DNA of 64,000 nt, taken from a virus. The translations under genes were made by a program, and so were the position numbers. Positions 3,211 to 56,720 of the stretch are shown piece after piece; position 1 is the first letter of the stretch; each line of letters starts with the position of its first letter. The DNA is taken from positions 1 to 64,000 of the IMG/VR virus record IMGVR_UViG_3300042396_000691. The stretch is one strand, 5' to 3'. Under the pieces are notes generated by a model. It was not told the origin of the DNA, ran no database searches, and saw only the letters and a program-made list of their open reading frames with translations.

Positions 3211-3233
3211 CTAAGTTAAGGGAAACGGCTTTG

Positions 3234-7036: not shown

Positions 7037-7037
7037 C

Positions 7038-29301: not shown

Positions 29302-29577
29302 ATGAAATACCTTTATGAAATATGGATAAGGGTAGAAGGAAAAAATAAAAAAAATAAAGCTTCTATAGATAAAAATGGAAGTTTTTGTATTGCACTATGT
29401 GCTTCATCAAATAAAGAGGCAATTCTTATTTTGCAAGAGGTATTTTTAAGTTGTGATAAAAGACCAATAGGAAATAAAAAGAAAATAAAACACTTTAGGT
29501 TGAAAGACGGTTGCTCTAAGTATATATTTCTTCTATGTAAGGAAAATGTCGAAAGTTATAAAAGAGAATGTGATTAA
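29302..29577 (+). CDS. Unknown 91-aa basic protein
   Basis: ATG 29302 after TTGGAG. Basic and Lys-rich, with a beta-like middle. It immediately precedes the structured intergenic element, so its mRNA could end or continue into it. Unknown. Confidence 0.65.
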   Translation: MKYLYEIWIRVEGKNKKNKASIDKNGSFCIALCASSNKEAILILQEVFLSCDKRPIGNKKKIKHFRLKDGCSKYIFLLCKENVESYKRECD

Positions 29578-29879
29578 AAGCAACTGCGTTAACAATTCAA
29601 GCATACGGTTCTTCCGCAGTTTTTATACCGAAATGAATCACATCACCAGGGGATAACCCCAAGGATTGCCAGAGAGTAGCCAAACTCTCAACAGGGTGGC
29701 ACGAAATAGTTTAGAAAGATTATTATACTAGAATTTGAGTGACCACTTCTCATACTAGACCTGATACTTTACAAGTACCTTCTTTCTAATGTCCTGTTTG
29801 GTCAAAATTTTATAACAAACTGCTTGTTCTAGGAACTTGCTGGTAGTAGTACTATCAGGGAGAAGAAGTGGCTTATTGC
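29578..29879. ncRNA. Structured 300-nt intergenic element, putative ncRNA
   Basis: No gene lies here between two convergent genes. Many stems can be drawn on the + strand: AACTGCG/CGCAGTT (29582-29588 with 29615-29621); GGGG-ATAA-CCCC (29649-29660); TGCCA-GAGAGT with ACTCTC and TGGCA (29667-29701, 7-nt bulge); TTAGAAAGA/TCTTTCTAA (29711-29719 with 29781-29789); GTTC/GAAC and GGTAGT/ACTATC hairpins at 29822-29856; and an 8-bp long-range pair CCACTTCT/AGAAGTGG (29743-29750 with 29864-29871). The density of exact pairing far exceeds that of other intergenic gaps here. Strand and class are unknown, and it matches no RNA I can name. Confidence 0.65.
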
Positions 29880-30164
29880 CTATAAGTAATCTGCTGTTAT
29901 ATCGGAAAAAAACCAAACAACAGTTTTTTCAATAAATCCTTTAGAATTAAAATCATTTACATTTTTACCAATAATTGATAGCAATGAAATAAATTCAGAT
30001 TCTGATATAATACCATTTAAATAAGATTTTCTTGTTATTTTTAACAGTAAATCAAAAGTTTCATTTGAACAAATGTCGTTTTTTGATATAGAATTAAGTA
30101 TTGTTATTGAGTTTGAAAGTTTTTTTGTTAACTTTTTACAAGCATAGTCTATTCTATTTTTCAA
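29880..30164 (-). CDS. Unknown 94-aa helical protein
   Basis: TTG start at 30164 with AAGGA in the expected place on the - strand. Helical, with an Ile/Ser/Lys-rich N-terminal half. Its stop lies at the right edge of the structured element. Unknown. Confidence 0.6.
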   Translation of the reverse strand: MKNRIDYACKKLTKKLSNSITILNSISKNDICSNETFDLLLKITRKSYLNGIISESEFISLLSIIGKNVNDFNSKGFIEKTVVWFFSDITADYL

Positions 30165-30187
30165 AATTATTTTCCTTGAGGTTTATA

Positions 30188-30691
30188 ATGGCTAAAAAGA
30201 AAAAACAAATTTCAAGTGAAATAAAACTTCTTTTAAAAAAGAACCTAAGATCTATAGTAGAAATAGAAAAGAAAAATTGCACTATAGAAGATCCAGATTT
30301 TGGAGAAATGGTTTCAAAAAAAGCTTGGAATTCATCTGATTTTGTTGATTTTGTTAAAAAAAAGAACACATACACTTACACAATAAGTGAAGGTTTAATA
30401 ATTGTTGGATTTTTACTTTTTGAAGTTAAAGAAAACGAATTGTTAATTGAAAGAATATGTATAGACAAAGATTTTAGAAGATCAGGTTTTGGTAAAGATT
30501 TTTTAGATTTTATATATAACAAAAAATACAGAAATAAAATTGTTTTTTATTGTAAAGAAGATGATGTTAATACAATTAAATTTTTTAAGAAAAATGACTT
30601 TACAGCCAATTTAGAAAAAAATTACTTTGGAATAGATGATGATGCGATTAAGTTTACGAAGGAGGTTTTTTATGAAGAAAACAAAAAATAA
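30188..30691 (+). CDS. GNAT-family N-acetyltransferase
   Basis: 167 residues from ATG 30188 (GAGG before it). The acetyl-CoA loop is RICIDKDFRRSGFGKDFLDF (about residues 99-118), the R/Q-x2-G-x-G/A pattern of the GNAT fold. IFYCKEDDVNTIKFFKKNDF-like sequence near residue 130 is the usual substrate-side helix region. The N-terminus is a basic tract (MAKKKKQ). Substrate unknown; a protein or small-molecule amine is possible. Confidence 0.75.
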   Translation: MAKKKKQISSEIKLLLKKNLRSIVEIEKKNCTIEDPDFGEMVSKKAWNSSDFVDFVKKKNTYTYTISEGLIIVGFLLFEVKENELLIERICIDKDFRRSGFGKDFLDFIYNKKYRNKIVFYCKEDDVNTIKFFKKNDFTANLEKNYFGIDDDAIKFTKEVFYEENKK

Positions 30692-30851
30692 AATACTTGT
30701 GAATTGTTTAGGTTGGTGCAATAAACAATTTCTAAGTTGTGATCCAGCAACAAATAGAATCTGTAAAAAGTGCAAAGAAAAAATGGATAATAAAAAAAAT
30801 GAAATGGGTAAAAATTACTTTTACGAAAAAAAAATAGAGATAAATGAGTAA
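30672..30851 (+). CDS. Small Cys-rich protein
   Basis: 59 residues from ATG 30672 after AAGGAGG. C11, C15, C22 and the CKKCK pair near residue 30 suggest a zinc site. Overlaps both neighbours. Unknown. Confidence 0.6.
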   Translation: MKKTKNKILVNCLGWCNKQFLSCDPATNRICKKCKEKMDNKKNEMGKNYFYEKKIEINE

Positions 30852-31884
30852 ACCAAAGATTGCACTTATAACACCGTCATTAGGTATGGGTGGTGCTGAA
30901 AGATGGATAGTAACTCTTGCAAAATTCTTTAAGAGACTAGACCCTTATTTAATTTTAAATTTAAGTGGTCAAAGCGATTCAATTTTATTAGAAGAAGTTC
31001 CAAAAACAACAAAAATTTTGTCTAATTTTTATTCAAATCCAGAAAAAATTATAAGTTTTTTGAGTGATGCTGATGCAGTTATATCTTGGTGTTTTAATTT
31101 AAACATAAACTTAAAAAATAATTTAAAATGTCCAACTATAGATGTTTCACATAGTGATCCATCTTGGAAAGATCATAAGTTATTAATAAATCAAACATAC
31201 AAAAATTCAAAATATCATGTTGGTGTAAGTAAAGTTGCTGCTTCAGCATTTAGTGAAAATGATGCAACTGTAATATACAATGGAATAGATATAAATAGAC
31301 TTGAAGAATTGAAAGGAAGAGTAAAACAAAGAAAAGAATGGGGTTGTGAAGATAATAAAGTTGTTTTGTTTTTAAGTAGATTATCAGAAGAAAAAAATCC
31401 AAAAATTCTTGTTCAATGCTCAGAATTATTTGATGAAAGTTGGAAATTTTTATTTGTTGATACTGGTTCTTTAAAAAAAGATTTTCAATTGATAAAAAAA
31501 CAAAATATTCAATTAATTAAAAAAACAAAAAACATTGGAGATTACTATGCTGGTGCAGATGTAATTGTCCTTCCTTCAGATGTAGAAGGTATGCCGTTAG
31601 TACTATTAGAGTCTTGGTTTTGTGGTGTTCCAATTGTAACAACTCAATATAACTCTTATTTAGAGTTAATGAATTTACATGGTGAATTGTGTTTATCAAC
31701 CAAGGTAAGACCAACAGCAGTTGAATTTTCAAATAAAATAAAAAAAGCTTATAACCAAGGAAGAAAATCTGAAATGGTCGTTTTAGCTAAATCTATTGTA
31801 GAAAGTAATTATACACATAAAACAATGATTAAAAATTGGGAAGATTACATATTTTCAAAAATAAAAGAATGTAATGATACTTAA
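30844..31884 (+). CDS. GT4-like glycosyltransferase
   Basis: 346 residues, GT-B fold. The N-terminal domain starts KIALITPSLGMGGAERW (Rossmann loop, residues about 5-20), and the C-terminal domain holds VVLFLSRLSEEKNPKILV and VIVLPSDVEGMPLVLLES (E-x7-E type donor site). It probably transfers a hexose to a lipid-linked or protein acceptor. Overlaps the sulfotransferase gene. Confidence 0.92.
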   Translation: MSKPKIALITPSLGMGGAERWIVTLAKFFKRLDPYLILNLSGQSDSILLEEVPKTTKILSNFYSNPEKIISFLSDADAVISWCFNLNINLKNNLKCPTIDVSHSDPSWKDHKLLINQTYKNSKYHVGVSKVAASAFSENDATVIYNGIDINRLEELKGRVKQRKEWGCEDNKVVLFLSRLSEEKNPKILVQCSELFDESWKFLFVDTGSLKKDFQLIKKQNIQLIKKTKNIGDYYAGADVIVLPSDVEGMPLVLLESWFCGVPIVTTQYNSYLELMNLHGELCLSTKVRPTAVEFSNKIKKAYNQGRKSEMVVLAKSIVESNYTHKTMIKNWEDYIFSKIKECNDT

Positions 31885-32485
31885 CAAAAAAAAGAAATGG
31901 CTTTACATAGGACCACCAAAGACTGGTAGTACAGCCATATCATATGTTTTAACGGATGGAAAGTATAACAATAATGCTTTTATTCAAGATTTAAATGTTA
32001 ATTTTGAAGGCATAGAAATAAATGGTCAACACACCCCTTGGCCTCCTGACGAATTAAGTTCTGAATATGATGGCTATAATGTTTTTATAAGTGTAAGAAA
32101 TCCTTTTTCTAGAATAGTTTCTCTTTACAATCATTGGAAGTATGGACAGAATTACGAAAATGAATTTTTGTTAAAAGAAAAAACTTTTGAAGAATTTATA
32201 GGTCTTGTTTTAAATAAAAAACTTTCTAACGATGGTTTTTTCCATTATACAATAACAGAATGGGTGTCTAAATATCGTTCATTTATAAAACAGGAAAACC
32301 TGCAAAGTGATTTAAAAATGCTGAATATTCACTCTATAGATTTTAATGTTCCAATAATAAATGAGAAATTAGGATCGACAAAACATTGGAAAGAAGAGCA
32401 CAATAAAAAAACAATTGAAATGACAATTGAATGGGCAGAAAAAGATTTTTATAATTTTGAATACAGCAAGGACATTAATGTTTAA
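31874..32485 (+). CDS. Sulfotransferase-family protein
   Basis: 203 residues. WLYIGPPKTGSTAISYVL carries the 5'-phosphosulfate loop and FISVRNPFSRIVSLYNHW the 3'-phosphate-binding Arg and Ser of PAPS-dependent sulfotransferases. The catalytic base position is less clear. Located next to a glycosyltransferase, it probably sulfates a glycan, a rarer modification in phages. Confidence 0.85.
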   Translation: MILNKKKKWLYIGPPKTGSTAISYVLTDGKYNNNAFIQDLNVNFEGIEINGQHTPWPPDELSSEYDGYNVFISVRNPFSRIVSLYNHWKYGQNYENEFLLKEKTFEEFIGLVLNKKLSNDGFFHYTITEWVSKYRSFIKQENLQSDLKMLNIHSIDFNVPIINEKLGSTKHWKEEHNKKTIEMTIEWAEKDFYNFEYSKDINV

Positions 32486-33194
32486 GTGTTTTTTTGATTT
32501 TTTTGGTTCTGATCGTTCTGGTAAATGGTGGACTCTTCGTTGTCAACACATTAAAGATAATCCATCATGTATAGGTTGTGGCACAAAAAAAGAGGTTCAA
32601 GTTCATCATATAATACCAGTTAGTGTTGATTCATCTAAAGAGTTATGTAGAAACAACTTATGTACTCTTTGCAAACATTGCCATTTTGTTTTTGGGCACT
32701 TGCACAACTATAAAAATTACAATCCAGAAGTAATTAGGGATTGCCAAGAGCATTACAAAAGAGTAAAACAATTTAGAGTTAAGACTTTTCAAAAACCTAT
32801 TTCTTTATGGAGGACTATTATGAGCAAGTTTTTTGGTTCTATTGCGTTAGTTTTTTTAGGATATTCAATTTATGTTAGCCATATGTATGTGGTAGAAACT
32901 AATAAAAATATAACGGTTAAAGAACTTTTTGCTGCTGAAAACAGACTATTGAAAGATGAAATTTATGCAGAGAGAAGCAAACCAACTTATGAAAATGGCT
33001 ATAGGGATGCTATTTTAAGGGCTGGTTCACCAACTGGATCTGGTTCATATCGTGATGGTTGGGAGGCTTGTGCAAAGCTTTATACAGACGGTTCATGGAC
33101 AAGCGGTTATCATACGGCACTAGAACAATTTGGTTGGAAGAATGAATCAACAGCATTCAAAAATTCAAATCCTCAAGCTGTTTCTATGAAATAA
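32478..33194 (+). CDS. HNH endonuclease fused to a membrane-anchored C-terminal domain
   Basis: 238 residues from ATG 32478. The N-terminal part is an HNH nuclease: IGCGTKKEVQVHHIIPVSVD, then LCTLCKHCHFVFG, giving the paired-Cys zinc site and the HH of the active centre. At about residue 115 begins MSKFFGSIALVFLGYSIYVS, a transmembrane segment, followed by a Gly/Tyr-rich domain without known match. An internal ATG at 32820 has its own GGAGG and would give the C-terminal half alone. The reading frame looks like two genes fused. Confidence 0.75.
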   Translation: MFKCFFDFFGSDRSGKWWTLRCQHIKDNPSCIGCGTKKEVQVHHIIPVSVDSSKELCRNNLCTLCKHCHFVFGHLHNYKNYNPEVIRDCQEHYKRVKQFRVKTFQKPISLWRTIMSKFFGSIALVFLGYSIYVSHMYVVETNKNITVKELFAAENRLLKDEIYAERSKPTYENGYRDAILRAGSPTGSGSYRDGWEACAKLYTDGSWTSGYHTALEQFGWKNESTAFKNSNPQAVSMK

Positions 33195-33208
33195 TCTTTA
33201 ATGATTTG

Positions 33209-33235
33209 CCCTCATACTGTGTATTAGTATGGGGG
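33209..33235 (+). promoter_or_regulatory. Ribosome-site-sequestering hairpin before the HNH gene
   Basis: CCCTCATACT (33209-33218) pairs with AGTATGGGGG (33226-33235) in a 10-bp stem with one T-G pair and a 7-nt loop. The 3' strand is the GGGGG that serves as ribosome site for the ATG at 33241. Folding would hide it. Confidence 0.7.
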
Positions 33236-33240
33236 TAATC

Positions 33241-33615
33241 ATGAAAAAGAAATCACACAATAGCAAAGCTTTTGGCGAAATTTCTGGAAAATATTGGGCT
33301 TCATTAAGAAAAAACGCAAAAAAAAGAAACATACAAATAAAAGTAACAATAGAAGAAGCTTGGGAAATTTTCCTAAAACAAAACAAAAGATGTTTTTATA
33401 CTGGCTTAAAAATAACCCATAAAAAATATTTAAAAAGAATTAATAATAAAGATATTTATTCTTTAGGAACAGCATCGTTAGATAGGAAAAACAGTAGCCT
33501 TGACTACACTAAAGAAAATATACAGTGGGTTCATAAAGATGTTAACTATATGAAGATGAGTTTAAACGAAAAGTATTTCGTAAAACTTTGCAAGCTTATA
33601 TCTAGGAGATTTTAA
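33241..33615 (+). CDS. HNH-type homing endonuclease-like protein
   Basis: 124 residues. CFYTGLKI in the middle, then TASLDRKNSSLDYTKENIQWV and KDVNYMKM are the His-Asn-type HNH pattern in a version where the first His is replaced or lies in the HKK stretch. Small free-standing nucleases of this type are phage mobile elements. Expressed from ATG 33241 within a hairpin leader. Confidence 0.75.
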   Translation: MKKKSHNSKAFGEISGKYWASLRKNAKKRNIQIKVTIEEAWEIFLKQNKRCFYTGLKITHKKYLKRINNKDIYSLGTASLDRKNSSLDYTKENIQWVHKDVNYMKMSLNEKYFVKLCKLISRRF

Positions 33616-33956
33616 TGAATTTTCAATCGCATGAAGATCTTTACATTCAACTTTCAAAAGACGAAAAAGAATTAGCTAATTCACTTATTTCATTGTCTCA
33701 AAAAGTTGGTCCGATCAATAAATCTGATGGTATTTGGGTTGGATATGAAAATGCAGATAACAATCCTACTAAAAATATTGGTGTTAAGTGTGGAAATTGT
33801 GCATTACACAAATCAGAAAACACATGCATTATACTTGATCAACAAATAGAAATGGATGGTGTTTGCAGATTTGCAGTTATACCAGATGGTTATGTTAATG
33901 TTGTTAAAGTAGAAAAGGACATAGAAGAATACCTTAATGAAAATAATAATAAATAG
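33615..33956 (+). CDS. Cys-cluster protein, unknown
   Basis: 113 residues. CGNCALHKSENTC and VCRFAVIPDGY form a C-x2-C-x(9)-C...C arrangement like a small iron-sulfur or zinc protein (HiPIP-like spacing). It shares bases with the HNH gene and overlaps the deformylase gene by 20 nt. Unknown. Confidence 0.6.
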   Translation: MNFQSHEDLYIQLSKDEKELANSLISLSQKVGPINKSDGIWVGYENADNNPTKNIGVKCGNCALHKSENTCIILDQQIEMDGVCRFAVIPDGYVNVVKVEKDIEEYLNENNNK

Positions 33957-34422
33957 TCCTGTTTTAAAAACAAAATGCAAAGAAGTAGATTTAAAAAAGG
34001 GAAAGACTATTGCCAAAAGAATGTGGCAATTTTTAAACCTTTACAATAAAAAAAACGAAGTAAAAGCTGTTGGTTTAGCAGCAAATCAATTTGGAATAGA
34101 TGCTTCAGTTGCCATAGTTCTTAAAAACAACAAACCATTTATTTTAATGAATCCTAAAATAATAAATTTTTCTCAAATAAAAATTTGTAAAAAAGAAGGA
34201 TGCTTAAGTTTTCCAGATGAACAACTTGATGTCTATAGACATATGTGGATTGAAGTTGTATGTTTAAATCATCCTAATCCTATTTTCTTTGGAAGTAGAC
34301 CAGAAGAAAGCAATGATAATTTTTTGGAAAGTTGTGTTGCTCAACATGAAATAGCACACTTAAACGGTTTGACTTTTCATGATTTTCAATGGAATAATTC
34401 AATAACACCTAACGATTGGTAA
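33937..34422 (+). CDS. def: Peptide deformylase
   Basis: 161 residues with the three family motifs in order: GLAANQFG (motif 1, about residues 47-54), EGCLSFP (motif 2, metal Cys) and QHEIAHLNG (motif 3, the two His and catalytic Glu of HExxH). It removes the N-formyl group from nascent proteins using Fe or Zn. Phage deformylases are common and support host or phage protein maturation. Complete and probably active. Confidence 0.93.
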   Translation: MKIIINSPVLKTKCKEVDLKKGKTIAKRMWQFLNLYNKKNEVKAVGLAANQFGIDASVAIVLKNNKPFILMNPKIINFSQIKICKKEGCLSFPDEQLDVYRHMWIEVVCLNHPNPIFFGSRPEESNDNFLESCVAQHEIAHLNGLTFHDFQWNNSITPNDW

Positions 34423-34423
34423 A

Positions 34424-34693
34424 ATGAAAAACCACTATACAAAAGTAAAAAACGCTGTAGATTTTAAAATATACAATGAGCTTGAGAGTTTTGTTTACAA
34501 CTCTTTAGTTGAAGATGAGTTAACATCTGAAGAAAATTTGCGTTCTTTAATTGTTTCTCAGGTAAAAAGAGAACATGGTAGCCTTATTTATTCGAGCATA
34601 GAAATAGAAGATACTATAAAAAATCTAATTATTAGAAAAATTATTAAAGAAGCGATTGGTATAAAGTTGTCCAAGTTTATTCATAGTCAATAG
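34424..34693 (+). CDS. Unknown 89-aa protein
   Basis: It starts one base after the deformylase stop, with no clear ribosome site, so it is probably coupled. Charged and helical, with an Ile-rich C-terminus (NLIIRKIIKEAIGIKLS). Unknown. Confidence 0.6.
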   Translation: MKNHYTKVKNAVDFKIYNELESFVYNSLVEDELTSEENLRSLIVSQVKREHGSLIYSSIEIEDTIKNLIIRKIIKEAIGIKLSKFIHSQ

Positions 34694-34708
34694 TTAGGGG
34701 TATTTATA

Positions 34709-34744
34709 CATGGGCTTTATCCTTTTAAAAGGAGGTATCCCATG
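34709..34744 (+). promoter_or_regulatory. Hairpin covering the ribosome site and start codon
   Basis: CATGGG (34709-34714) pairs with CCCATG (34739-34744), whose last three bases are the next start codon. An inner palindrome CCTTTTAAAAGG (34721-34732) covers the AAAGGAGG. The start could be opened only when the stem melts. Confidence 0.65.
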
Positions 34745-34915
34745 CAAACTTATTTTGAAGTTTGGGCAACAGAGCCTAATGGCAAAACAAGAATAAAAAT
34801 AGCAGAGTACGAAGAAATTTTTTGGCAAAGAGCAGAAAAAAAAGCTTTATCATTAGAGTTACAAGGATATACTAAGATAGTTGTTTTTGAAAAAATGAGG
34901 ACTACAAACAAATAA
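34742..34915 (+). CDS. Unknown 57-aa protein
   Basis: ATG 34742 follows AAAGGAGG inside the hairpin described above. A mixed helix-strand protein (start MQTYFEVWATEP). The unusual regulated start is the main interest. Unknown function. Confidence 0.6.
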   Translation: MQTYFEVWATEPNGKTRIKIAEYEEIFWQRAEKKALSLELQGYTKIVVFEKMRTTNK

Positions 34916-34940
34916 GTTTGATTTGCATAAGGAGGATACT

Positions 34941-36005
34941 ATGGATATAAATCTCAGTTGCCCAATAAATCAGCTTGGGTATGGTGTCGTTGGTTTAAAT
35001 GTTTTTTTAAATTTACAAAAAAATCATAATGTAGCACTATGGCCAATTGGACCAGTAGATTGCGAAGAATCAAAACATGATGCATTAAGAGCATCTATTG
35101 AAAAAACAAAAACATTTAATTACACAGCACCAAGTTTAAAAATATGGCATCAGTTTGATATGGCATCTCATGTTGGAAATGGCAAAAAATTTGGTTTAAC
35201 ATTTTTTGAAACCAATAAAATAAAAGAAAATGAAATTCATCATTTAAAATTTTTAGAAAAAGTATTTGTTACATCCTCTTGGGCAAAAGAGGTTCTTATA
35301 AATTCTGGTTTAGAAAGTTCAAAAATAGTAGTTGTAAAACTTGGTGTAGATAAAGTAATTTTTCCAGAATCTAAAATAGATGATAAAAAAACAACCAAAA
35401 TAGTTTGTGTTGGTAAATGGGAAATAAGGAAAGGTCATGATCTTATCATAGATATTATAGAAAAAACTTTTGATAAAGATGATGATTTCAAACTTATAAT
35501 GTGTTGCTCTAATCCGTTTTTGTCACAAGAAGAACAAAATCACTGGATTTCATTTTTTGAAAAAAGCAAATATTTTGATAAGATAATTGTTTTGAAAGAA
35601 AGATTAAAATCTCAAGCAGATGTTAATAGGCTTATGCATGGTTCTGATGTTGGCATATTCCCATATCGTGCAGAAGCTTGGAACTTAGAACTTTCTGAAA
35701 TGTTGTCAATGGGCAAACATTGCATTGCTACAAATTATTCTGGTCCAAAAGAATTTGCTAATGATGCTGGTGCGATTTTAATTAACTCAGAAGGTATGGA
35801 AAGTGCTTACGATGGAAAATGGTTTGATGGTTCAGCAGAATGGGCCAAACTAGGAAAAAAATATGTGGAAGAATTTTCTTCTGCCTTAAGAAATATTCAT
35901 GAGCAAAAACAAAAGGGTGATTTAAAAATAAACTCTAAGGGTATAGAATATTTTAATCAAAACACTTGGGAAAAATCTTGCGAAACAATAGTGGGTGAAC
36001 TATGA
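34941..36005 (+). CDS. GT1/GT4-type glycosyltransferase
   Basis: 354 residues from ATG 34941 after AAGGAGG. A GT-B enzyme: the N-terminal part is atypical (PINQLGYGVVGLNVFL), the C-terminal domain begins KIVCVGKWEIRKGHDLIIDI and has DVGIFPYRAEAWNLELSEML with the donor-binding Glu pair. Related to glycosyltransferases in giant-phage glycan clusters. It overlaps the next gene by 4 nt. Confidence 0.9.
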   Translation: MDINLSCPINQLGYGVVGLNVFLNLQKNHNVALWPIGPVDCEESKHDALRASIEKTKTFNYTAPSLKIWHQFDMASHVGNGKKFGLTFFETNKIKENEIHHLKFLEKVFVTSSWAKEVLINSGLESSKIVVVKLGVDKVIFPESKIDDKKTTKIVCVGKWEIRKGHDLIIDIIEKTFDKDDDFKLIMCCSNPFLSQEEQNHWISFFEKSKYFDKIIVLKERLKSQADVNRLMHGSDVGIFPYRAEAWNLELSEMLSMGKHCIATNYSGPKEFANDAGAILINSEGMESAYDGKWFDGSAEWAKLGKKYVEEFSSALRNIHEQKQKGDLKINSKGIEYFNQNTWEKSCETIVGEL

Positions 36006-36400
36006 ATTTGACAGTATCATTTTTAATATGCAGAACAGACGAAGGTAAAGAACCATCAATTTTATTTTTAAAAAATGAAAATGGTAATTATGAATTGCCA
36101 AGTTTTCAAATGAAAGACGATGAGTATGATGTTGATGAATTTGTTGGCAGAACATTTAAATCAATCACTGGTGTTCAAGTAATAGACAAAAGAGGTTTTG
36201 GTTGGATTAACTTGTTTTTATCTGGAACCATAGTATCAAATAAAAAATATAGTTTTGTTTATATGTGTAAGCTTCCAGATGTTATAAATATTGAAATTTA
36301 TGAAAGTATAAAAATGAGTTCTCTTCTTGAATCACAAAATTTTGAAGAGGATTATATTTCTCAAGTTATTCACTGTTTTAATAATTTATACATTAGATAA
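36002..36400 (+). CDS. Degenerate Nudix-like protein
   Basis: 132 residues. LTVSFLICRTDEGKEPSILF and YELPSFQMKDDEYDVDEFVG resemble the strands and Nudix box region, but the REUxEE core is not evident, so it would be inactive or is a different fold. Overlaps its neighbours. Assignment tentative. Confidence 0.45.
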   Translation: MNLTVSFLICRTDEGKEPSILFLKNENGNYELPSFQMKDDEYDVDEFVGRTFKSITGVQVIDKRGFGWINLFLSGTIVSNKKYSFVYMCKLPDVINIEIYESIKMSSLLESQNFEEDYISQVIHCFNNLYIR

Positions 36401-36401
36401 C

Positions 36402-36710
36402 ATGAAAAACATAAAAATAATTTTTGATGTAAATTTAAGCGATGTTATAACAACATTTGTATTTCCAGAAATAATAGACAAAGAAGAAAAATCTGTTTTA
36501 TCTGAAAAAACAGCATCTTTTCTTTCTTCTCTGCAAACTGGAGGTGTGATGACATCAATAATACATGGTGTTGTTGAAGGTGGAATTATTTCTGACGATA
36601 AAGGTTTATCTGATTTAATAATTAAAAAAATGCTTTCTAATTTTTTAGTTACATCAGATGAAAAACCATTGATTCTTCCAAGTGAAGCATTTGTTTTTAA
36701 GGAAAAATAA
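36402..36710 (+). CDS. Unknown 102-aa protein
   Basis: ATG 36402 shortly after the previous stop. Alpha/beta with a mixed hydrophobic segment (TGGVMTSIIHGVVEGG) near residue 48. It overlaps the thyX start. Unknown. Confidence 0.6.
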   Translation: MKNIKIIFDVNLSDVITTFVFPEIIDKEEKSVLSEKTASFLSSLQTGGVMTSIIHGVVEGGIISDDKGLSDLIIKKMLSNFLVTSDEKPLILPSEAFVFKEK

Positions 36711-37513
36711 TGACGATAGAAGCAAAGATAATTTCAGACTCGATATCTATTTACGACAGAAGAATAACCACTATGGTTATTAAGTATCCAAGGTTTATAC
36801 ATTCTGAATTTATGACACATAGAATTTTTTCTAGAAATGCGAGTAGTAGCCGAGCTATACCAGTTGATAAAATGATTGATGATATTAAACACGACATGGC
36901 AAAACCAAGCATTTGGGCAAAAAATCAAAAAGGAATGTCATCTGGCGAAAGGTTAGATTATAACAAAGAAGTTATGTGTAATCATGTTTGGCAAGAAGCA
37001 GCAGAATTTGTTATTAAAAAATGTGCATTGTTAAAAGAACTTGGTGTTCACAAAAGTATAGCCAATAGAATACTAGAGCCTTTTTCTCACATAACAACAA
37101 TTGTTACTTCTACAGAATGGGATAATTTTTTTAAATTGAGGATAAGCCCTGATGCACAACCAGAAATATGTGAATTAGCAACAAAAATGAAAGTCGTATT
37201 AGATGAATCAACCCCTAAGATTAAAAACTTTGGTGATTGGCATATTCCATTTGGTGATGCTTATGTAGATGATGGTGTACCAATAGAAAAAATGCTTAAA
37301 ATAAGTGTCGCTCGTTGTGCTAGAGTTAGCTATCTTAATTTTGAAGGAAAAATAGACAATGAAAAAGATTATGATCTTCATGACAAATTAATGGAAGAAG
37401 GTCATTGGAGTCCTTTTGAACATTGTGCTACTCCTACATCATCTGATATCTATAGCGGAAATTTTTTAGGTTGGCTACAATATAGAAAATTTGCGGATAG
37501 AAAGAATGATTAA
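36710..37513 (+). CDS. thyX: Flavin-dependent thymidylate synthase
   Basis: 267 residues. The diagnostic motif THRIFSRNASSSRAIP (RHRxxSxNxxSxR type) is at about residues 36-51. The enzyme converts dUMP to dTMP with FAD, NADPH and methylene-THF. Full length. It supplies dTTP for the low-GC phage genome. The C-terminal part (EEGHWSPFEHCATPTSS) holds the FAD/dUMP loop. It overlaps the preceding and following genes by 1-8 nt. Confidence 0.93.
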   Translation: MTIEAKIISDSISIYDRRITTMVIKYPRFIHSEFMTHRIFSRNASSSRAIPVDKMIDDIKHDMAKPSIWAKNQKGMSSGERLDYNKEVMCNHVWQEAAEFVIKKCALLKELGVHKSIANRILEPFSHITTIVTSTEWDNFFKLRISPDAQPEICELATKMKVVLDESTPKIKNFGDWHIPFGDAYVDDGVPIEKMLKISVARCARVSYLNFEGKIDNEKDYDLHDKLMEEGHWSPFEHCATPTSSDIYSGNFLGWLQYRKFADRKND

Positions 37514-38078
37514 AAAAATACAATGGCTGAAGTGGGAAGATCCACTTACGCCAAATAAAGAAGACATTGATCTTGAAACGAAATCTCATAAAGACAGCTT
37601 TAAAGAATTTGATGATTCTGAAGAAAGACATGTCAGATTAGTTGTCGGCCCTTATGGTCTTTTGCCACTAAATGAAAATGCTGTTACGGCAAAACTTTAT
37701 AAGCTTTGGGTTGGTCATTGTAACTTTGAAATAACCGATACAGTCAAAGAAAAAATAGAATCTGTTGCTGGAGTAGAAGTTTTACGAATATGGACAAGAT
37801 ATAGGTTTTGGTTAGGTGTAGCAAATCTTTTTGATGATTCAGATGTTCAAAGCGATATTGAAAAACTTTTAACTGAAGAGAAAGAATTAAAGAATAAAAA
37901 TATTGCACTTAAAGCTTTGGTAAAAGTTTTAAAAAATAAATATAAATTTTGGGCAGTTTTTTTAGAAAAGAATGGTGAATTAAAAACTGTTGGTAGTGAA
38001 AATATTGAAGATGTAAAAAAAGAAACAGAATTGAATAAAAATTTAAACATATTGGCTTGCAGTTGGAAAAATGATTGA
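37506..38078 (+). CDS. Unknown 190-aa phage protein
   Basis: Start at ATG 37506, which overlaps the thyX stop. The central part (VRLVVGPYGLLPLNENAVTA, then an EVLRIWTRYRFWLG segment) looks like a phage regulatory or morphogenesis protein but no family can be named. The second half is a Lys-rich helix. Confidence 0.65.
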   Translation: MIKKIQWLKWEDPLTPNKEDIDLETKSHKDSFKEFDDSEERHVRLVVGPYGLLPLNENAVTAKLYKLWVGHCNFEITDTVKEKIESVAGVEVLRIWTRYRFWLGVANLFDDSDVQSDIEKLLTEEKELKNKNIALKALVKVLKNKYKFWAVFLEKNGELKTVGSENIEDVKKETELNKNLNILACSWKND

Positions 38079-38117
38079 TATATTGTATTTATCCATTACT
38101 CAAAAGGAGATTTCGCT

Positions 38118-38378
38118 ATGTCTGATGTTGTAAAAAGCTTTAATCCTGATCAAGTTGCAAAGTCTGTAGCTATTATTGTGTCTACCTTAAAATGGGTTTC
38201 TACCATTATTCCAGGTGATTCAGACGATAAAGTTGTTGCTCAAATTGTTAAAATTGCTGAAGAGCCTTGGTTTGTTACGGCTTTGACTTTTTTAATTAAC
38301 AAATTTGATGGCGATATGAGTCAAATAAAAGCTGAAGACTTTATCCTTGCTGCTAGAACGGCTCAAGGAAAATACTAG
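38118..38378 (+). CDS. Unknown 86-aa protein
   Basis: AAAGGAG precedes the ATG. Two probable helices, one quite hydrophobic (VAIIVSTLKWVSTIIPG), with an acidic middle. Overlaps the next gene (TAGTG). Precedes a membrane peptide; an envelope or lysis link is possible but unproven. Confidence 0.6.
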   Translation: MSDVVKSFNPDQVAKSVAIIVSTLKWVSTIIPGDSDDKVVAQIVKIAEEPWFVTALTFLINKFDGDMSQIKAEDFILAARTAQGKY

Positions 38379-38521
38379 TGCTTAAGTTTTTAATTGAACT
38401 TATCTCTAATATTGTAATAGCTATTTTTTTAGCGATTATATTTATATTGTTTTATGTTTCAGACAGTTTAAAAAAACATAAGCATAATAAAGAATGTTTT
38501 ATTGATAAAACCAATAAGTAA
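38378..38521 (+). CDS. 47-aa single-span membrane protein
   Basis: GTG start overlapping the preceding TAG, behind AAGGA. Residues 9-27 (ISNIVIAIFLAIIFILFYV) form one transmembrane helix and the C-terminus is basic (KKHKHNKE). Holin-like or a host-envelope peptide; unproven. Confidence 0.55.
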   Translation: MLKFLIELISNIVIAIFLAIIFILFYVSDSLKKHKHNKECFIDKTNK

Positions 38522-38537
38522 ATTATAGGAAATTAAC

Positions 38538-39317
38538 ATGTTTAAGAAATCATTGTTTTTTTTGTTGGTGTTTTGCAATTTTGCTTTTGCAGAAAATTTT
38601 GTAATTCCAGAGCAAAAAATCGTTGGAGCAGAAATTCCTATTCCTTTGGGTGAGCTTGTAGATTTGTCTATAAGCCCAATTCAATCCACGCCAAAGTTTT
38701 TAGTTTCAACTACATATGCATGGAAAGTATTTGACGGTTATACAGAAAAAAGAATTCGTAATTATGAAAATGGTGTTTTCTTTGGTTCTGGAATACAAGC
38801 AAAAAGACTCAAGGTTATTGTTTCAATAACTCATTTGTACATAGTTAAAGAAAACGAAAAGCTTTTAGAGGCTGCTACTAGAACTAATTTTATTTCAACA
38901 GATGTTTTTATTGGTGAACAAGAACCTGATACTCCACTAGAGCCAGAGGTTGAACCAGAATTTGGAGAATCAAAGTATCAACTTTCTAAATTTATTTATG
39001 ACAATGTTAAGATTTTAAAAATATCAAAATCAGATAAGGTAAAACAATCTACTGCTATTGCAACATCTTTTGATAGCATGGCTGCTGCTATTGCTGCCGG
39101 AACAATTGCAACACTTGAAGACATACTGAAAAAGACAGCAGAATCAAATAAATTAGCATTAACAAAATCTGGTGGAGATAGAACAAAATGGGAACCACTA
39201 TTTACAGAAATACAAGAAAAGCTTTTTGACTTGTATAAAACTAATAAGATGCAAACCAAAGAAGATTTTGCTATTGCGTGGAGAGAAATATCATCTGGTC
39301 TTAAATTAATAAAATAG
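38538..39317 (+). CDS. Secreted protein, unknown
   Basis: 259 residues. N-terminal signal MFKKSLFFLLVFCNFAFAEN with AFA cleavage site. The mature part is beta-rich up to an acidic hinge (EPEVEPEFGE), then helical to the end. It lies between the membrane peptide and the papain-like protease. Function unknown. Confidence 0.7.
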   Translation: MFKKSLFFLLVFCNFAFAENFVIPEQKIVGAEIPIPLGELVDLSISPIQSTPKFLVSTTYAWKVFDGYTEKRIRNYENGVFFGSGIQAKRLKVIVSITHLYIVKENEKLLEAATRTNFISTDVFIGEQEPDTPLEPEVEPEFGESKYQLSKFIYDNVKILKISKSDKVKQSTAIATSFDSMAAAIAAGTIATLEDILKKTAESNKLALTKSGGDRTKWEPLFTEIQEKLFDLYKTNKMQTKEDFAIAWREISSGLKLIK

Positions 39318-39324
39318 GTGAAAC

Positions 39325-40248
39325 ATGTCTGAATTATCAAAGTTAGGTGGTTGGGCAGGAAAAGACAATCCTTCGCTTGTTGAAAGTGAATTCAATTTAA
39401 TTAAAGATGGTGGATCATTTAGAGACTTTAATGTTTATGGCAAAAGCCAAGACACTAAAGGCAAAAAAATGATGTTGTATGATGTTGTTCGTAAAGTTCT
39501 TGGTAAGGATACTCCTAATTACGCTCAAGAAATTGGTGACTGCGTAAGTTTTGGTGCTAAAAATGCCATTGAATACTTAATGGCTACTGAAAAACTTATG
39601 AAGGGCGATCACGAAAAATTTGAATTTGTTTTTCCACCATATCTTTATGGCACAGGAAGAGTTCTTGTTGGTCGTGGACAACTTAATGGTGAAGATGGAT
39701 CTCTTGGGAGTTGGATGGCAGATGCTGTTATTAAATATGGGGTTCTTCGTAGTAATTTTGATGGTCTTCCTAAGTATGCTGGAAGCGTAGCCAAAAAATG
39801 GGGCGATACACCAGGACCAGACAAGAAGTTTGTTGAAGAAGGAACTAAACACCCAGTAAAGTCTGCTGCTCAAATTAAAAATTGGGATCAATTAGTAGAG
39901 GCTATTGTAAATGGTTACCCCTGCACAACTGCTAGTGATGTAGGGTATGAAATGGAACCAGAGTCTGATGGTTTTCATAGCCAGACAGACAATTGGGGCC
40001 ATCAAATGTGTTTTATAGGCGTTGACGATAGAGCTAAAGACCCATACGCAATTATTGTTAATAGTTGGGGTGATGCTCACGGTCATCTTAAAGACTTTGA
40101 CACTGGAGAAAATCTTCCTGTCGGAGTTTTAAGAGTTAAAAAGAAAGATGCTGAAAAACACATTAGGGCTGGTGAAACTTTTGCTTATAGTAATTTCGAA
40201 GGTTTTCCAGAACAGTTGATAGATAAAAAATTATTTATGCTTATTTAG
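39325..40248 (+). CDS. Papain-like cysteine protease
   Basis: 307 residues. YAQEIGDCVSFGAKNAIEYL contains the Gln oxyanion residue and catalytic Cys (Q-x4-C), GHQMCFIGVDD the catalytic His, and YAIIVNSWGD the Asn-Ser-Trp-Gly of C1 peptidases. No signal peptide is obvious, so it may be a virion or lysis protease rather than secreted. Neighbours are secreted and membrane proteins. Rare in phages. Confidence 0.85.
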   Translation: MSELSKLGGWAGKDNPSLVESEFNLIKDGGSFRDFNVYGKSQDTKGKKMMLYDVVRKVLGKDTPNYAQEIGDCVSFGAKNAIEYLMATEKLMKGDHEKFEFVFPPYLYGTGRVLVGRGQLNGEDGSLGSWMADAVIKYGVLRSNFDGLPKYAGSVAKKWGDTPGPDKKFVEEGTKHPVKSAAQIKNWDQLVEAIVNGYPCTTASDVGYEMEPESDGFHSQTDNWGHQMCFIGVDDRAKDPYAIIVNSWGDAHGHLKDFDTGENLPVGVLRVKKKDAEKHIRAGETFAYSNFEGFPEQLIDKKLFMLI

Positions 40249-40259
40249 AAGGGTTTAAT

Positions 40260-41150
40260 ATGACAAATAAATCTGAAGGTTTACAGTATGGAAAGCCAGA
40301 CAAGGATGATCCAAGAAAAACTCCAGCAAAACCAGAAGAGCAAAAAAAGGGTTCTAAAAAAAACCCAAAAGACTCTGCCAATAAGCCAAATAAAGATATT
40401 GAGTTATCAAAAGAAACCGAAGATAAAATTAAAGTTTTGATGCAAAAGCATAACGACAAAGATCCAGAATTTAAAGCCAATATGGGCCAATTAAAATCTG
40501 TCTTTAGAAGAGGTGCTGGAGCATTTTCTACTAGTCATGCACCAAACATGAATAGAACAGGGTGGGGTTTAGCTAGAGTAAGAGCTTTTTTATATTTGCT
40601 CCGCAATAAAAGAGCATCAAATCCGAATTACAAGCAAGATAATGATCTATTGCCAGAAGGTCATCCAAAAAGCACAAAAAAACCTTCAGCGTCTTACTTA
40701 AATGAAGAAATTGATTATTCTGAGTTTCTAAATTCTATTAAAGATATAATTGTAAAAAACAAAGAAAGAAGTAAAGCTTTTTCAGATATTGAAAAATATT
40801 TTACTAAATCTTCTGAAGGTTACGATGCACCAGAATCTGCTAGAAATAATGCAAGAAAAGTTTTAGAGTGGAAAGAAAAGTATGGGAAAGAATGCAAAGG
40901 TATGACCGCTGTAGGTTGGGCCAGAGCTAGAGATTTGGCTGGAAATGCTATGTTATCTGCTGATACAGTAAAAAGAATGGCTCAATTTAATAGGCATGGA
41001 TCTAATTATGAAAAAGCAAAATCTAAACCAGAGTATAAAACTAAACCTTGGAGTATTCCAGCGGTGGTTGCATGGTTAGGTTGGGGTGGAACATCTGGTA
41101 TTGAATGGGCAATGAGAACAAGTCAATCCATTATAAAAAACAAAAAGTAA
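40260..41150 (+). CDS. Phage protein with two conserved modules (possibly head-related)
   Basis: 296 residues, beginning with a Lys/Pro-rich unstructured 50 residues. Module 1 contains VFRRGAGAFSTSHAPNMNRT and GWGLARVRAFL (DUF5824-like spacing). Module 2 has NARKVLEWKEKYG, WARARDLAGNAMLS and PAVVAWLGWGGTSGIEW, repeated in phage head or maturation proteins. Function not proven; virion-associated is an inference. Confidence 0.65.
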   Translation: MTNKSEGLQYGKPDKDDPRKTPAKPEEQKKGSKKNPKDSANKPNKDIELSKETEDKIKVLMQKHNDKDPEFKANMGQLKSVFRRGAGAFSTSHAPNMNRTGWGLARVRAFLYLLRNKRASNPNYKQDNDLLPEGHPKSTKKPSASYLNEEIDYSEFLNSIKDIIVKNKERSKAFSDIEKYFTKSSEGYDAPESARNNARKVLEWKEKYGKECKGMTAVGWARARDLAGNAMLSADTVKRMAQFNRHGSNYEKAKSKPEYKTKPWSIPAVVAWLGWGGTSGIEWAMRTSQSIIKNKK

Positions 41151-41153
41151 ATC

Positions 41154-41324
41154 ATGTTAAGCTTAATGCTTTTTTTGTTGTTTGATCAAACTATAAGCAA
41201 AGAACAATTTGTGCTAATAGAGAAAGATTCTATTTCATTTTCTAAACTCATAAATCAACTACCAAAATCAAAAGTATCCTTATCAGTAATCATAAATGCA
41301 AATCAAGAAGAGTGTTTTACTTGA
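41154..41324 (+). CDS. 56-aa protein with hydrophobic N-terminus
   Basis: ATG 41154, weak ribosome site. The start MLSLMLFLLFDQTISK looks like a signal peptide or short membrane anchor, then a Ser/Lys/Glu-rich tail. Overlaps nothing. Weak support. Confidence 0.4.
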   Translation: MLSLMLFLLFDQTISKEQFVLIEKDSISFSKLINQLPKSKVSLSVIINANQEECFT

Positions 41325-41338
41325 CGGAGAAGAAAATA

Positions 41339-41686
41339 ATGCGGTCGCATAAAAAAATACAAGAAATATTAGAAAAATCAGAAGTTATTAAAAAGTATGA
41401 TGCTGTTGGTGTTATAACAATAATAATGATTGTTAGTCTTATATTTGAAGGCATAAAACTAATACAGTATTGCAAGTCTTCTAAAATAACAGCATCAATA
41501 ATTAAAAGAGGTGGACCTTTAGTTAGAATGTTTATTAGAAACAACCTTTATAAAAATATTATTAAAGCAAATGTTCCAGCAGAACACGCCAAGATCATAT
41601 CTGATACAATAGTCGAGTTGATGCAATCTTTGTCTGTTGATGAAATAGTTTCGCTTTTAAATATGGTTTACAATGAAAATAGTTAA
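41339..41686 (+). CDS. Membrane protein, unknown (115 aa)
   Basis: ATG 41339 after CGGAG. One hydrophobic helix (VGVITIIMIVSLIFEGI, about residues 23-39) then a basic segment and two short helices. Overlaps the next gene by 14 nt. Unknown. Confidence 0.6.
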   Translation: MRSHKKIQEILEKSEVIKKYDAVGVITIIMIVSLIFEGIKLIQYCKSSKITASIIKRGGPLVRMFIRNNLYKNIIKANVPAEHAKIISDTIVELMQSLSVDEIVSLLNMVYNENS

Positions 41687-42563
41687 GGCTACATATGGTC
41701 CAAAAGATGTAACGGAATATGTTGCAAGTATTTTCAAAGACGAAAGTTTAAACATTTATGTTTCCAACGCTATTTTTGGCGACACAAATCATGGCGTATT
41801 AAAAAAATTGATTGTTGAATTTGATGATGGTTCTAAATTAGAAACAAATGAAAATGAATTTTTAATTTACCCAAAAATTTTTGATGAAAGAATTGGTGTT
41901 TTTTATACAAACAACAATGACACAAGAAAAGAAAAAGCTTTATATGCTAGTTTAAAAAGTTTAGCTATTTCATCAGAAAAAAAAGCTAGAATAATTACAT
42001 CTGTATGGAATAAAATACCAGAAAATCCATTTTGTGAAATAGTTTCTCAAACCAAGAATAGTAGCCATTTAAATCAAGTTTTACAAATATTGCATTTGCT
42101 TTATTTTGTAAGAAAAAATTCAACAAATGTCAAATATGTTAGTTTTTTAGAACATGATTGCCTTTATCCAGAAGGGTATTTTGAATATGATGATTTTGAA
42201 TGCGATTCTATATCAAATACTAATTATATAGGATTGTGTTCTTTTGGTTGGCAACCTAAAAATGGTGCAGCAAAAGCAACATCTCAAGTGACTATGAAGT
42301 TTACCAGTGCCATTAAACATTTTGAAAACATATTTCCAAATGCGTTATTGAAAAACTCTGGAAGTTTAGAACCTTGGTATTCAAAAGAAGCTTCTTTTAC
42401 ACCATTAAGCTGGAAAAACAAAGATTGGTTTTGTAAAAATCCATCGGTTCACATAAATCACGGCTATGCATTCACATCGCATTTTGAAACTTTTCAAAAG
42501 GTTTTTTCTGAATCAAATGAATACTGGGGTGATTATTCAGAATATGCTTATCTTTTTTCTTAA
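41673..42563 (+). CDS. Two-domain glycosyltransferase-like protein
   Basis: 296 residues. Residues 1-70 (KATYGPKDVTEYVASIF, then NAIFGDTNHGVLKKLIVEF and FLIYPKIFDER) resemble the DUF3395 type beta module, found in PVC bacteria. The second part has KYVSFLEHDCLYPEGYF (a DxD-like acidic site) and SVHINHGYAFTSHF, as in GT-A enzymes. A transferase is likely; the donor is unknown. It ends just before the nrdJ leader. Confidence 0.6.
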   Translation: MKIVKATYGPKDVTEYVASIFKDESLNIYVSNAIFGDTNHGVLKKLIVEFDDGSKLETNENEFLIYPKIFDERIGVFYTNNNDTRKEKALYASLKSLAISSEKKARIITSVWNKIPENPFCEIVSQTKNSSHLNQVLQILHLLYFVRKNSTNVKYVSFLEHDCLYPEGYFEYDDFECDSISNTNYIGLCSFGWQPKNGAAKATSQVTMKFTSAIKHFENIFPNALLKNSGSLEPWYSKEASFTPLSWKNKDWFCKNPSVHINHGYAFTSHFETFQKVFSESNEYWGDYSEYAYLFS

Positions 42564-42626
42564 TTTTTCTACAAAAAACATTTGATTAAAAGTCATAAAA
42601 TAGTCTTGCCACAATAAAAAAAATAA

Positions 42627-42733
42627 GTAAGATTTTGATCTGTCTTACCTACAATCATGGGTGTATTTATTTCCGCTGGTAATCGCCAGCATTACATTCC
42701 TTTAGAGTTCCGCTTATCCTTGCGATAGCAGGG
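42627..42733 (+). promoter_or_regulatory. Structured leader of the ribonucleotide reductase gene
   Basis: Three hairpins: GTAAGA/TCTTAC (42627-42632 with 42643-42648), GCTGG/CCAGC (42675-42679 with 42686-42690) and CCTTGC-GATA-GCAGGG (42718-42733). An alternative GTAAT/ATTAC pair (42679-42683 with 42691-42695) would exclude the second one, giving two possible states. It ends a few nt before the ribosome site (GGAG) of nrdJ. No cobalamin box is visible. The class could be an nrdJ leader motif, but I cannot confirm that. Confidence 0.6.
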
Positions 42734-42750
42734 CAGATGGAGTTTTTTTC

Positions 42751-45042: not shown

Positions 45043-45143
45043 TGTCAAAAAGAATTGCAAAGATTTCAAAAACTAAAAAAGCAAAATTGGTGAAAAAAAA
45101 TGCCGAAAAAAGGAAAAGTAAAAGGCATAGGTTCCCCTTTTAA
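45042..45143 (+). CDS. 33-aa basic peptide (possible)
   Basis: TAATG overlap with the nrdJ stop opens a 33-residue frame, nearly half Lys and Arg (start MSKRIAKISKTKKA). It overlaps the next gene's start region out of frame. Overlap and composition suggest translation, but the length makes it uncertain. Confidence 0.35.
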   Translation: MSKRIAKISKTKKAKLVKKNAEKRKSKRHRFPF

Positions 45144-45963
45144 TCTTAGTTTTTCAAGTTGTTCAAACAACAGCCCAAAGCTTTTTGATTGGTCTAATGA
45201 AGATTCAGATTTTTCTGTTTTCATGGATTATTCAATTCTTGATTGTTACAAATACCCAAAAGTTAAAAATGTTCCTAGATTTGGATGGTTGTGTGAATCT
45301 ATAACAATATTTCAAAACTTGTATGATAAAATAAAATATGATTACAAAAAAATATTCAACGATATAGATTACATATTTACTTCTGACGAATATTTGCTTT
45401 CTTTAGATTCAAGATTTAAATTTTGTTATTCGTGCAGCAATATTCCTTGGTCAAAAAAAGAAAGTTGGAACATTTATAAAAAAACAAAAATGTGTTCAAT
45501 GATATGTTCAAATAAGTTAAGTTGTAATTTTCATGCTATTAGACAAAGTATAGCAAAAAACAATGTTAAAAAATTTGATTTGTTTGGCGGTTTTTTAAAT
45601 TCGCCTTATACTGGTGAAAAATATGATGGTTTCTATAAAAAAGATAATGCACTAAAAGACTATATGTTTACTGTTGTTATTCAGAATAATAATCAACCAT
45701 ATTTTTTTGCTGAAATGTTAACAGATTGTTTTTCATTTGGAACAATACCTATTTATTTAGGTAATCCTAAAATAGACTTGTTTTTTGATTCAAATGGAAT
45801 AATATCTATAGGTTCAGAGGAAGATCTTGATAAGATTGTTCTTAATGAAGAATTATATTGGTCTAGGTTTGATGGTGTAAAAAACAATTTTCAAAAATTG
45901 CAGACAATGGAAATGAGCGATGATTATCTTTATCAGCAATGTTTAAAGCTTATGGAGGTTTAA
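45100..45963 (+). CDS. GT10-like glycosyltransferase (fucosyltransferase type)
   Basis: 287 residues. The C-terminal half MFTVVIQNNNQPYFFAEMLT and SFGTIPIYLGNPKIDLFF match the donor-binding region of GT10 enzymes (E-N-x...E-K, G-x-P-x-x-x-G), which make alpha-1,3-fucose linkages. The N-terminal half has the usual acceptor-binding content without a clear motif. Probably modifies a surface glycan. Confidence 0.75.
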   Translation: MPKKGKVKGIGSPFNLSFSSCSNNSPKLFDWSNEDSDFSVFMDYSILDCYKYPKVKNVPRFGWLCESITIFQNLYDKIKYDYKKIFNDIDYIFTSDEYLLSLDSRFKFCYSCSNIPWSKKESWNIYKKTKMCSMICSNKLSCNFHAIRQSIAKNNVKKFDLFGGFLNSPYTGEKYDGFYKKDNALKDYMFTVVIQNNNQPYFFAEMLTDCFSFGTIPIYLGNPKIDLFFDSNGIISIGSEEDLDKIVLNEELYWSRFDGVKNNFQKLQTMEMSDDYLYQQCLKLMEV

Positions 45964-45964
45964 T

Positions 45965-46201
45965 ATGTCTTTATTTAATATTGGTGATATAGTTGCTTTA
46001 AAATCTGGTGGAATGCCAATGACGGTTGTTGCTTTTGGAGAAGAAACAAAAGAGGTTTTAGTTGTTTATTTTGATTTGGATGCTAATGTTATGCGAGATG
46101 GTTTTCCAGCAGAATCATTAGAGTTTACAGAAAATAGATGGAAGATGAAATATTGTGTTGATATAAACGAAGAAGATTATACAGATGATGAGGAATTTTA
46201 A
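45965..46201 (+). CDS. YodC/DUF2158-family protein
   Basis: 78 residues. FNIGDIVALKSGGMPMTVVA and GFPAESLEF match the small SH3-like DUF2158 fold (GDxVxLKSGGPxMTV). The function of the family is unknown. AGGAGG... GGAGG lies before it, and it shares a base with the next start. Confidence 0.8.
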   Translation: MSLFNIGDIVALKSGGMPMTVVAFGEETKEVLVVYFDLDANVMRDGFPAESLEFTENRWKMKYCVDINEEDYTDDEEF

Positions 46202-46563: not shown

Positions 46564-46811
46564 TGGCTTTAATTCCTAAAGCTGGAGAAGAATCACCTCA
46601 TACAGCTATAGTTAGAATACATTGGGAGGTTCTTCCAATCAGTTCTGATGGTTCATACGGATCAAATCAACCAGTTGATATTGGTTTAATATTGCTGAGA
46701 GCAGATGGAACTTCTTTTCAAGAAGCTAAAGTTAAACTTGAATCTTTTTTGAATAATTCTATTGATGACAAAAATTTTGCACATATTTGGAAAAGAGGGC
46801 AGTCATCATGA
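46563..46811 (+). CDS. Unknown 82-aa protein
   Basis: One base overlap with the FmdB stop (TAATG). Alpha/beta with a DIGLILLRADG turn. Unknown. Confidence 0.6.
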   Translation: MALIPKAGEESPHTAIVRIHWEVLPISSDGSYGSNQPVDIGLILLRADGTSFQEAKVKLESFLNNSIDDKNFAHIWKRGQSS

Positions 46812-56702: not shown

Positions 56703-56720
56703 TTTTTTTAGGAACAGCAC

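Follow-up and report, generated by a model that had tools for sequence, protein, structure and literature searches.

Genomic context of the element

The stretch of DNA analysed here (64,000 nucleotides, hereafter the window) comes from a virus record of 109,715 bases whose source is an uncultured tailed phage, and it carries genes for a DNA polymerase, a DnaB-like helicase, a primase and a ribonucleotide reductase. A plus-strand ORF of 91 amino acids (29302-29577) and a minus-strand ORF of 94 amino acids ending at 29880 converge on a gap in which a sequence-only reading had placed a highly structured element without a gene, at 29578-29879. The ORF list confirms the convergent arrangement and comparison with other phages the absence of a gene, while the 3′ boundary had to be moved, homology among phages stopping at about 29871. 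Using the alignments, the matches of our model R1 and pair counts, we delimit a structured RNA element of about 294 nt at 29578-29871 on the plus strand; in the window, 8 nt separate its end from the end of the convergent ORF. The other gaps had been given as 50-90 nt, but gaps of 149, 160, 191 and 229 nt also occur between ORFs of at least 60 amino acids, some of which may be occupied by shorter ORFs.

The GC content of the two 150-base intervals lying wholly within the element is 40% and 33%, and that of the interval beginning 28 bases upstream of it is 42%; intervals that do not overlap the element range from 18 to 31%. A coding function was considered and rejected, because a frame open through the element was found in none of 15 homologues and because the length differences among the homologues are not multiples of three. 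The longest open stretches are 73 codons in homologue L015 and 75 and 85 codons in homologue L046, counted irrespective of their positions. In the window, the mechanical ORF list includes a minus-strand ORF of 53 amino acids (29755-29916) that overlaps the element.

Two other features of the window were noted in passing. The phage DNA polymerase gene (phrog_405) is split into ORFs at 56721-58634 and 59538-61160, which match profile positions 41-616 and 632-1073, and between the halves lie an 89-amino-acid ORF and a 212-amino-acid RNase_T-type exonuclease (PF00929). The 663-amino-acid protein encoded at 48547-50535 has terminase/DnaC-like matches within residues 57-319 and UvsX/RecA matches within 378-584, and is apparently, judging from these matches, a fusion of two ATPases.

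Homologues and the upstream basic protein

With the 91-amino-acid protein as a query we recovered 18 IMG/VR loci, and the element lies downstream of the gene in all 18. When pattern scans and a protein-alignment search were added, the set grew to 31 viral loci with the gene, and the RNA follows it directly in every one, its core beginning 81-91 nt past the stop codon (31/31, L010 being truncated by the contig end). In several homologues there is no gap between this stop codon and the RNA, the two overlapping or lying side by side. One further locus, L046, has the element without the 91-amino-acid gene. Viral matches at L051 and L084-L092 (nine loci) were judged by eye to be chance and discarded.

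The gene immediately upstream of the RNA (29302-29577, plus strand) encodes a basic protein, with a pI of 9.2-9.8 across 15 distinct homologues and no match in Pfam or PHROG. Foldseek returned a best E-value of 0.59, and the RNA polymerase-binding protein YkzG at 1.3, but we do not count these matches as evidence since the predicted structure has a mean pLDDT of 55. Its position makes the protein a possible partner of the RNA, although not an obligatory one, because the L046 record yielded no homologue.

The alignment used below (A1) comprises 14 distinct sequences in 308 columns; their tree has two main clades, one with 3 rows and the other with 11. Over 294 of 294 sites the RNA of the window is identical to those of L007, L008 and L009, while in the same comparisons the 91-amino-acid gene is 92-96% and a glycosyltransferase gene 84-98% identical, the aligned flanking genes as a whole ranging from 84 to 99.6% apart from one poor alignment at 60%. 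The L012 RNA differs from that of the window at two sites. In L050, L014, L017 and L049 the RNA is 67-77% identical to that of the window and the genes are similarly diverged. This pattern would fit slow evolution of the RNA by paired changes, and recombination is a possible alternative account of the identity. In L009 the following gene is 99.6% identical to its counterpart in the window and the preceding one 92%, so that the RNA may mark a recombination junction.

Comparative evidence for a folded RNA

The sequence-only reading had proposed folding energy as a check on the structure, and by this measure the element does not stand out: its z-scores against dinucleotide shuffles are −0.66 on the plus strand and −0.81 on the minus strand, and 25 of 100 shuffles equal it on each strand. 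Energy is a poor guide for pseudoknotted RNA, and we relied on comparison instead. RNAalifold applied to A1 gave 66 pairs, in 24 of which some sequence was changed on both sides. Our model likewise has 66 pairs, arranged in 12 helices (P1-P9, P11, PK1 and PK2), three of which cross others, and 98.8% of its cells are paired across the 14 distinct homologues.

Covarying homologues in phage contigs, another of the checks proposed, do exist. In the model, 21 pairs carry changes on both sides, where shuffles give 7.4 ± 1.9 (reached by 0 of 500), and the covariation score is 0.188 against 0.084 ± 0.007 (0 of 500). Counted by cells, 45 are altered on both sides against 9.5 ± 2.5 in shuffles (0 of 500), many of these having been inherited together since the sequences fall into two main clades. 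The signal from further pair types is weaker (31, where shuffles give 26.9 ± 2.0 and 12 of 500 attain that value). When the partners were slid by 1-3 columns, pairing fell to 42-49%, a comparison that favours the model over its slid versions in that the model was derived from the same 14 sequences.

G-U is seen in 13 cells, spread over 8 pairs, and A-C in just 2 cells, one in each of 2 pairs; this imbalance points to a plus-strand RNA. The element had been proposed as an RNA of either strand; its RNA nature thus stood, and the choice of strand can now be narrowed to plus.

Helix model

At the 5′ end, P1 (29582-29588/29615-29621) is a hairpin with a conserved GGUUCUU in its loop. Its strands read AACUGCG/CGCAGUU in the window, AACUGGG/CCCAGUU in L017 and AACAGC/GCUGUU in L046. 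The central domain is closed by P2 (29645-29648/29799-29802), in which two pairs are altered on both sides, ACCA/UGGU being replaced by GCCG/CGGC in L050, and by P4 (29662-29666/29791-29795), with one pair altered on both sides and one varying on one side. Between the 5′ strands of these two helices lies the P3 hairpin (29649-29660), all four pairs of which are altered on both sides among the 14 homologues, and which exists in five sequence versions in A1.

P5 (29667-29671/29697-29701) is capped by P6 (29673-29677/29684-29688), with the loop AGCCAA followed by GGCACGAAA. The bulged hairpin that had been noticed at 29667-29701 recurs here as two helices of 5 bp, which are identical in all rows of A1 and in L046, and which by their invariance give no covariation evidence. 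A pairing of the P6 loop with GUUUGGU was dropped because L050, in which P2 covaries, disrupts it.

P7 is the longest helix (11 bp, 29711-29721/29779-29789), with 8 of its 11 pairs altered on both sides; it contains the 9-bp stem first seen at 29711-29719/29781-29789, which is found again in the homologues. P8 (29728-29731/29755-29758) and P9 (29736-29739/29749-29752) each have one pair altered on both sides. P11 (29760-29766/29853-29859) crosses P7 to form a pseudoknot and is paired in 98.0% of cells, with one pair altered on both sides.

The remaining two helices involve the 3′ strand. In PK1, the P9 loop (29743-29748) pairs with 29866-29871, and CCAC/GUGG changes to CCCC/GGGG in step; this is the long-range pairing previously drawn between 29743-29750 and 29864-29871, which recurs in the homologues with one pair switching between A-U and C-G. 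In PK2, the P1 loop (29611-29614) pairs with 29862-29865. Here 98.2% of cells are paired, one pair alternates between C-G and U-A in step, and one sequence is unpaired.

A distant homologue

The L046 contig (126,592 bases) encodes a DnaB that is 42% identical to that of the window, and no ORF of its 19-kb region matched a window ORF by BLASTP at 1e-4. Its element shares TGCCAGAGAGTAGCCAAACTCTCAA and GGCACGAAATAG with that of the window. Model R1 finds it weakly, with an E-value of 2.8e-4 in its record and 4e-5 on the fetched stretch, values that are rough, other and presumably chance matches appearing at E 0.004-0.006. Eight helices were sought in their expected places in L046, within search intervals chosen after inspecting L046; their pairs total 58, whereas shuffles average 41.2 ± 3.5 and reach at most 54 (0 of 300). 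Taken individually, P7, an unrelated helix of 11 pairs with one mismatch allowed (matched by 1 of 300 shuffles), and PK2, with 9 pairs (3 of 300), are strong, while the other six are unremarkable (37-162 of 300; 162 for P2, 88 for PK1 and 48 for the 7-bp equivalent of P11). PK1 and PK2 cannot both form fully in L046, because some bases of the 3′ strand are common to both.

By eye, L046 also has at about 3185-3213 a 9-codon ORF, preceded by a Shine-Dalgarno-like stretch and ending at the 5′ edge of the RNA, placed as the 91-amino-acid gene is in the other phages. Intermediates between the window clade and L046 were not seen, because the final viral scan used a single DnaB query and returned only DnaB relatives 72-100% identical.

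Search for known relatives

We compared the element of the window, L046 and L019 with the 4227 models of Rfam 15, and none reached its gathering score over the element; at permissive E-values the only matches were far below gathering scores. These searches agree with the earlier impression that hallmarks of known RNAs are absent: no Rfam or ARAGORN match to tmRNA, tRNA, RNase P RNA or group I or II introns was found at the element, and no Rfam match to a known riboswitch aptamer or to an IscB/TnpB guide RNA (HEARO-like). Pfam searches of selected proteins (9 from the window, 7 from L049 and 5 from L105) likewise showed no IscB or TnpB.

Against INPHARED, blastn with the window form returned only fragments of 23 and 31 nt with E-values of at least 1, and with the L046 and L019 forms it returned nothing. 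A strict sequence pattern found no locus in GTDB. A looser one found 24, which we rejected: none has more than three stem pairs around the loop, and a rough estimate of the number expected by chance is 25. Model R1 found nothing in three GTDB genomes, for which part of the candidates were scored, and the pattern with up to two mismatches was absent from 200 genomes of the phylum of a Methylobacter MAG. Titles and abstract openings of open-licence literature gave no pointer to the element, lists of candidate RNAs (e.g. PMC2864571, PMC8040213, PMC6429828, PMC8632094) falling outside the scope of this search. Since no relative appeared in Rfam, INPHARED or the GTDB patterns, the element is, on sequence grounds, a new RNA family and an orphan structured phage RNA; the absence of an Rfam match and the covarying phage homologues agree with the novelty first proposed for it.

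In general character only, the element resembles the GOLLD and ROOL RNAs, which a cryo-EM report (PMC12286853) describes as phage-encoded, elaborately structured with pseudoknots and of unknown function. It could accordingly be an RNA-only multimer of that type, or another ornate phage RNA, being itself large, pseudoknotted, phage-encoded and orphan. We consider this very improbable. In the same report ROOL env-120 measures 659 nt, many GOLLD RNAs exceed 800 nt and both often lie near tRNA islands, whereas the present RNA, at about 294 nt, is less than half as long as the ROOL studied, has no match to the GOLLD, ROOL or OLE covariance models at gathering score, and lies away from tRNA islands. 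The sole tRNA gene found by ARAGORN in the window is a tRNA-Met (CAT) at 6963-7037.

The 3′ strand and the genes around the RNA

What follows the RNA differs among lineages. In the window and L050 it is a convergent gene. In 10 of 14 homologues an ATG lies 8 nt on; of these ten following genes only that of L049 was scanned, and it is cupin-like, below the Pfam cut-off. In L014 a plus-strand ORF that by eye resembles a GNAT gene begins about 95 nt past the RNA, and in L046 an ATP-grasp gene follows. The 3′ strand itself varies with this arrangement: it reads AAGGGG in the 10 of 14 with the ATG and AAGUGG in the other four, which have no ATG within 25 nt. The PK1 partner changes in step with this difference, and the split can be explained by a single event on the tree. 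In L046 the same strand contains AAAGGA, just before an ATG. From this sequence pattern, the 3′ strand is likely a Shine-Dalgarno site in 10 of 14 homologues, and not in the window.

Translational riboswitches with a Shine-Dalgarno pseudoknot form a general class, and the likely Shine-Dalgarno site in the 3′ strand of PK1 gives the present RNA a likeness to them. The element might thus be a cis-acting translational switch, in which the Shine-Dalgarno site of the next gene is masked by PK1 and PK2 until a ligand, a protein or ribosomes occupying the upstream ORF release it. The tails of the 10 homologues and of L046 speak for such a switch, as does the fact that in several homologues the upstream stop codon touches the RNA at its 5′ end. 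However, the window and L050 have no target for it, because their next gene is convergent, and the window form is kept unchanged in all three identical comparisons despite having no gene to regulate. The following genes also differ among lineages, and no known aptamer is matched. We consider a pure switch of this kind unlikely.

Within 150 nt downstream, 14 of 15 homologues are devoid of terminator-like sites; in L046 one weak site was found, past the start codon that comes next. The neighbourhood of the RNA holds 8 promoter-like sites, against 8.5 ± 3.5 in shuffles, and one of them (29500-29528, 10 of 12 matches, inside the 91-amino-acid gene) might in theory drive the RNA separately. It is unlikely that the element is a free-standing small RNA ended by an intrinsic terminator of its own, given the missing terminator in 14 of 15 and the start codon 8 nt on in 10 of 14. 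From the lack of a terminator and of spacing, the RNA is probably embedded in an operon. The variable downstream genes, together with the missing terminator, argue against both a simple terminator-ended small RNA and a leader dedicated to one gene.

The tight 3′ end could also be read as a block or insulator between convergent genes, a knot at which exonucleases or oncoming transcription would halt. Such a role would suit the 8 nt left before the convergent ORF end in the window and a 3′ strand held by two loops. But in 10 of 14 homologues and in L046 a start codon on the same strand lies close after the RNA, and simple hairpins would suffice without 12 conserved helices, which makes this role improbable.

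Processive antitermination, in which the RNA modifies RNA polymerase in the manner of put, EAR or ConAn1/conAn2 with the 91-amino-acid protein as processivity partner, is suggested by the position of the RNA early in long same-strand runs. It is followed by 45 plus-strand ORFs in the window, with a single minus-strand ORF between, and by 50 in G007; it also lies early in such a run in G001. According to PMC8955417, ConAn1/conAn2 of plasmid pLS20 is a protein and an RNA at the start of operons of more than 30 kb, conAn occurs in Gram-positive plasmid operons, and the pLS20 operon has more than 20 terminators. In layout this system comes nearest to the locus of the window, where a small basic gene and an RNA likewise stand together early in a long gene run. 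The same text lists as antitermination RNAs EAR, of Bacillus exopolysaccharide operons, and the put RNA of phage HK022. Like them, the present RNA would lie within an operon, and as with EAR there are glycan-type genes nearby, in both the window phage and the L046 phage (two of the L046 matches being below the Pfam cut-off). Several considerations weigh on the other side. Terminator-like sites are not clearly enriched downstream, with 8 against 6.5 ± 2.9 in 30165-50000 (both strands; 3 on plus) and 10 against 5.4 ± 2.1 in 50001-64000 (both strands; 4 on plus). Nor does the RNA always open a gene run, several plus-strand genes preceding it in L050 and G005. The L046 phage lacks a detected 91-amino-acid protein, and the element has no Rfam match. 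EAR and put are both much shorter than the present RNA. We therefore regard antitermination as quite unlikely.

Proposed role

The comparisons support, at the level of sequence, the structure, the strand and the independence of the RNA from any one neighbouring gene, and embedding in an operon is probable. The reading we prefer, tentatively and with a probability of about 0.4, is an operon-embedded RNA whose folded function is independent of its neighbours and which has a secondary role in cis where a gene abuts it. The RNA would be read from the plus strand, most likely within a transcript that carries the 91-amino-acid gene, and would fold into a compact knot in which P2 and P4 close the central domain, P11 crosses P7, and the loops of P1 (PK2) and P9 (PK1) hold the 3′-terminal strand. 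From this locked tail we infer, indirectly, that the folded RNA may be cut out of the operon mRNA or may outlast it. It could then act as a stable RNA or as an RNA-protein particle, possibly with the 91-amino-acid basic protein. Where a gene starts right after the RNA, the locked tail would also be the likely ribosome-binding site of that gene and could control its translation. That the tail coincides with a probable Shine-Dalgarno site in 10 of 14 homologues, and also in L046, speaks for a cis role and to that extent against the preferred reading.

A further and rather unlikely extension of this proposal is that the new class of phage RNA and the upstream basic protein form a two-part machine acting on the host polymerase or ribosome, in which the RNA core would be ancestral and the protein a lineage-specific addition.

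The function of large folded phage RNAs of the GOLLD and ROOL type is still unknown. The present RNA is of a size that suits routine probing and structure determination, its model is backed by covariation and has three crossing helices, and nature provides variants with and without a likely ribosome-binding 3′ strand. Together, these properties make the choice between an autonomous RNA and a cis-acting switch directly testable.
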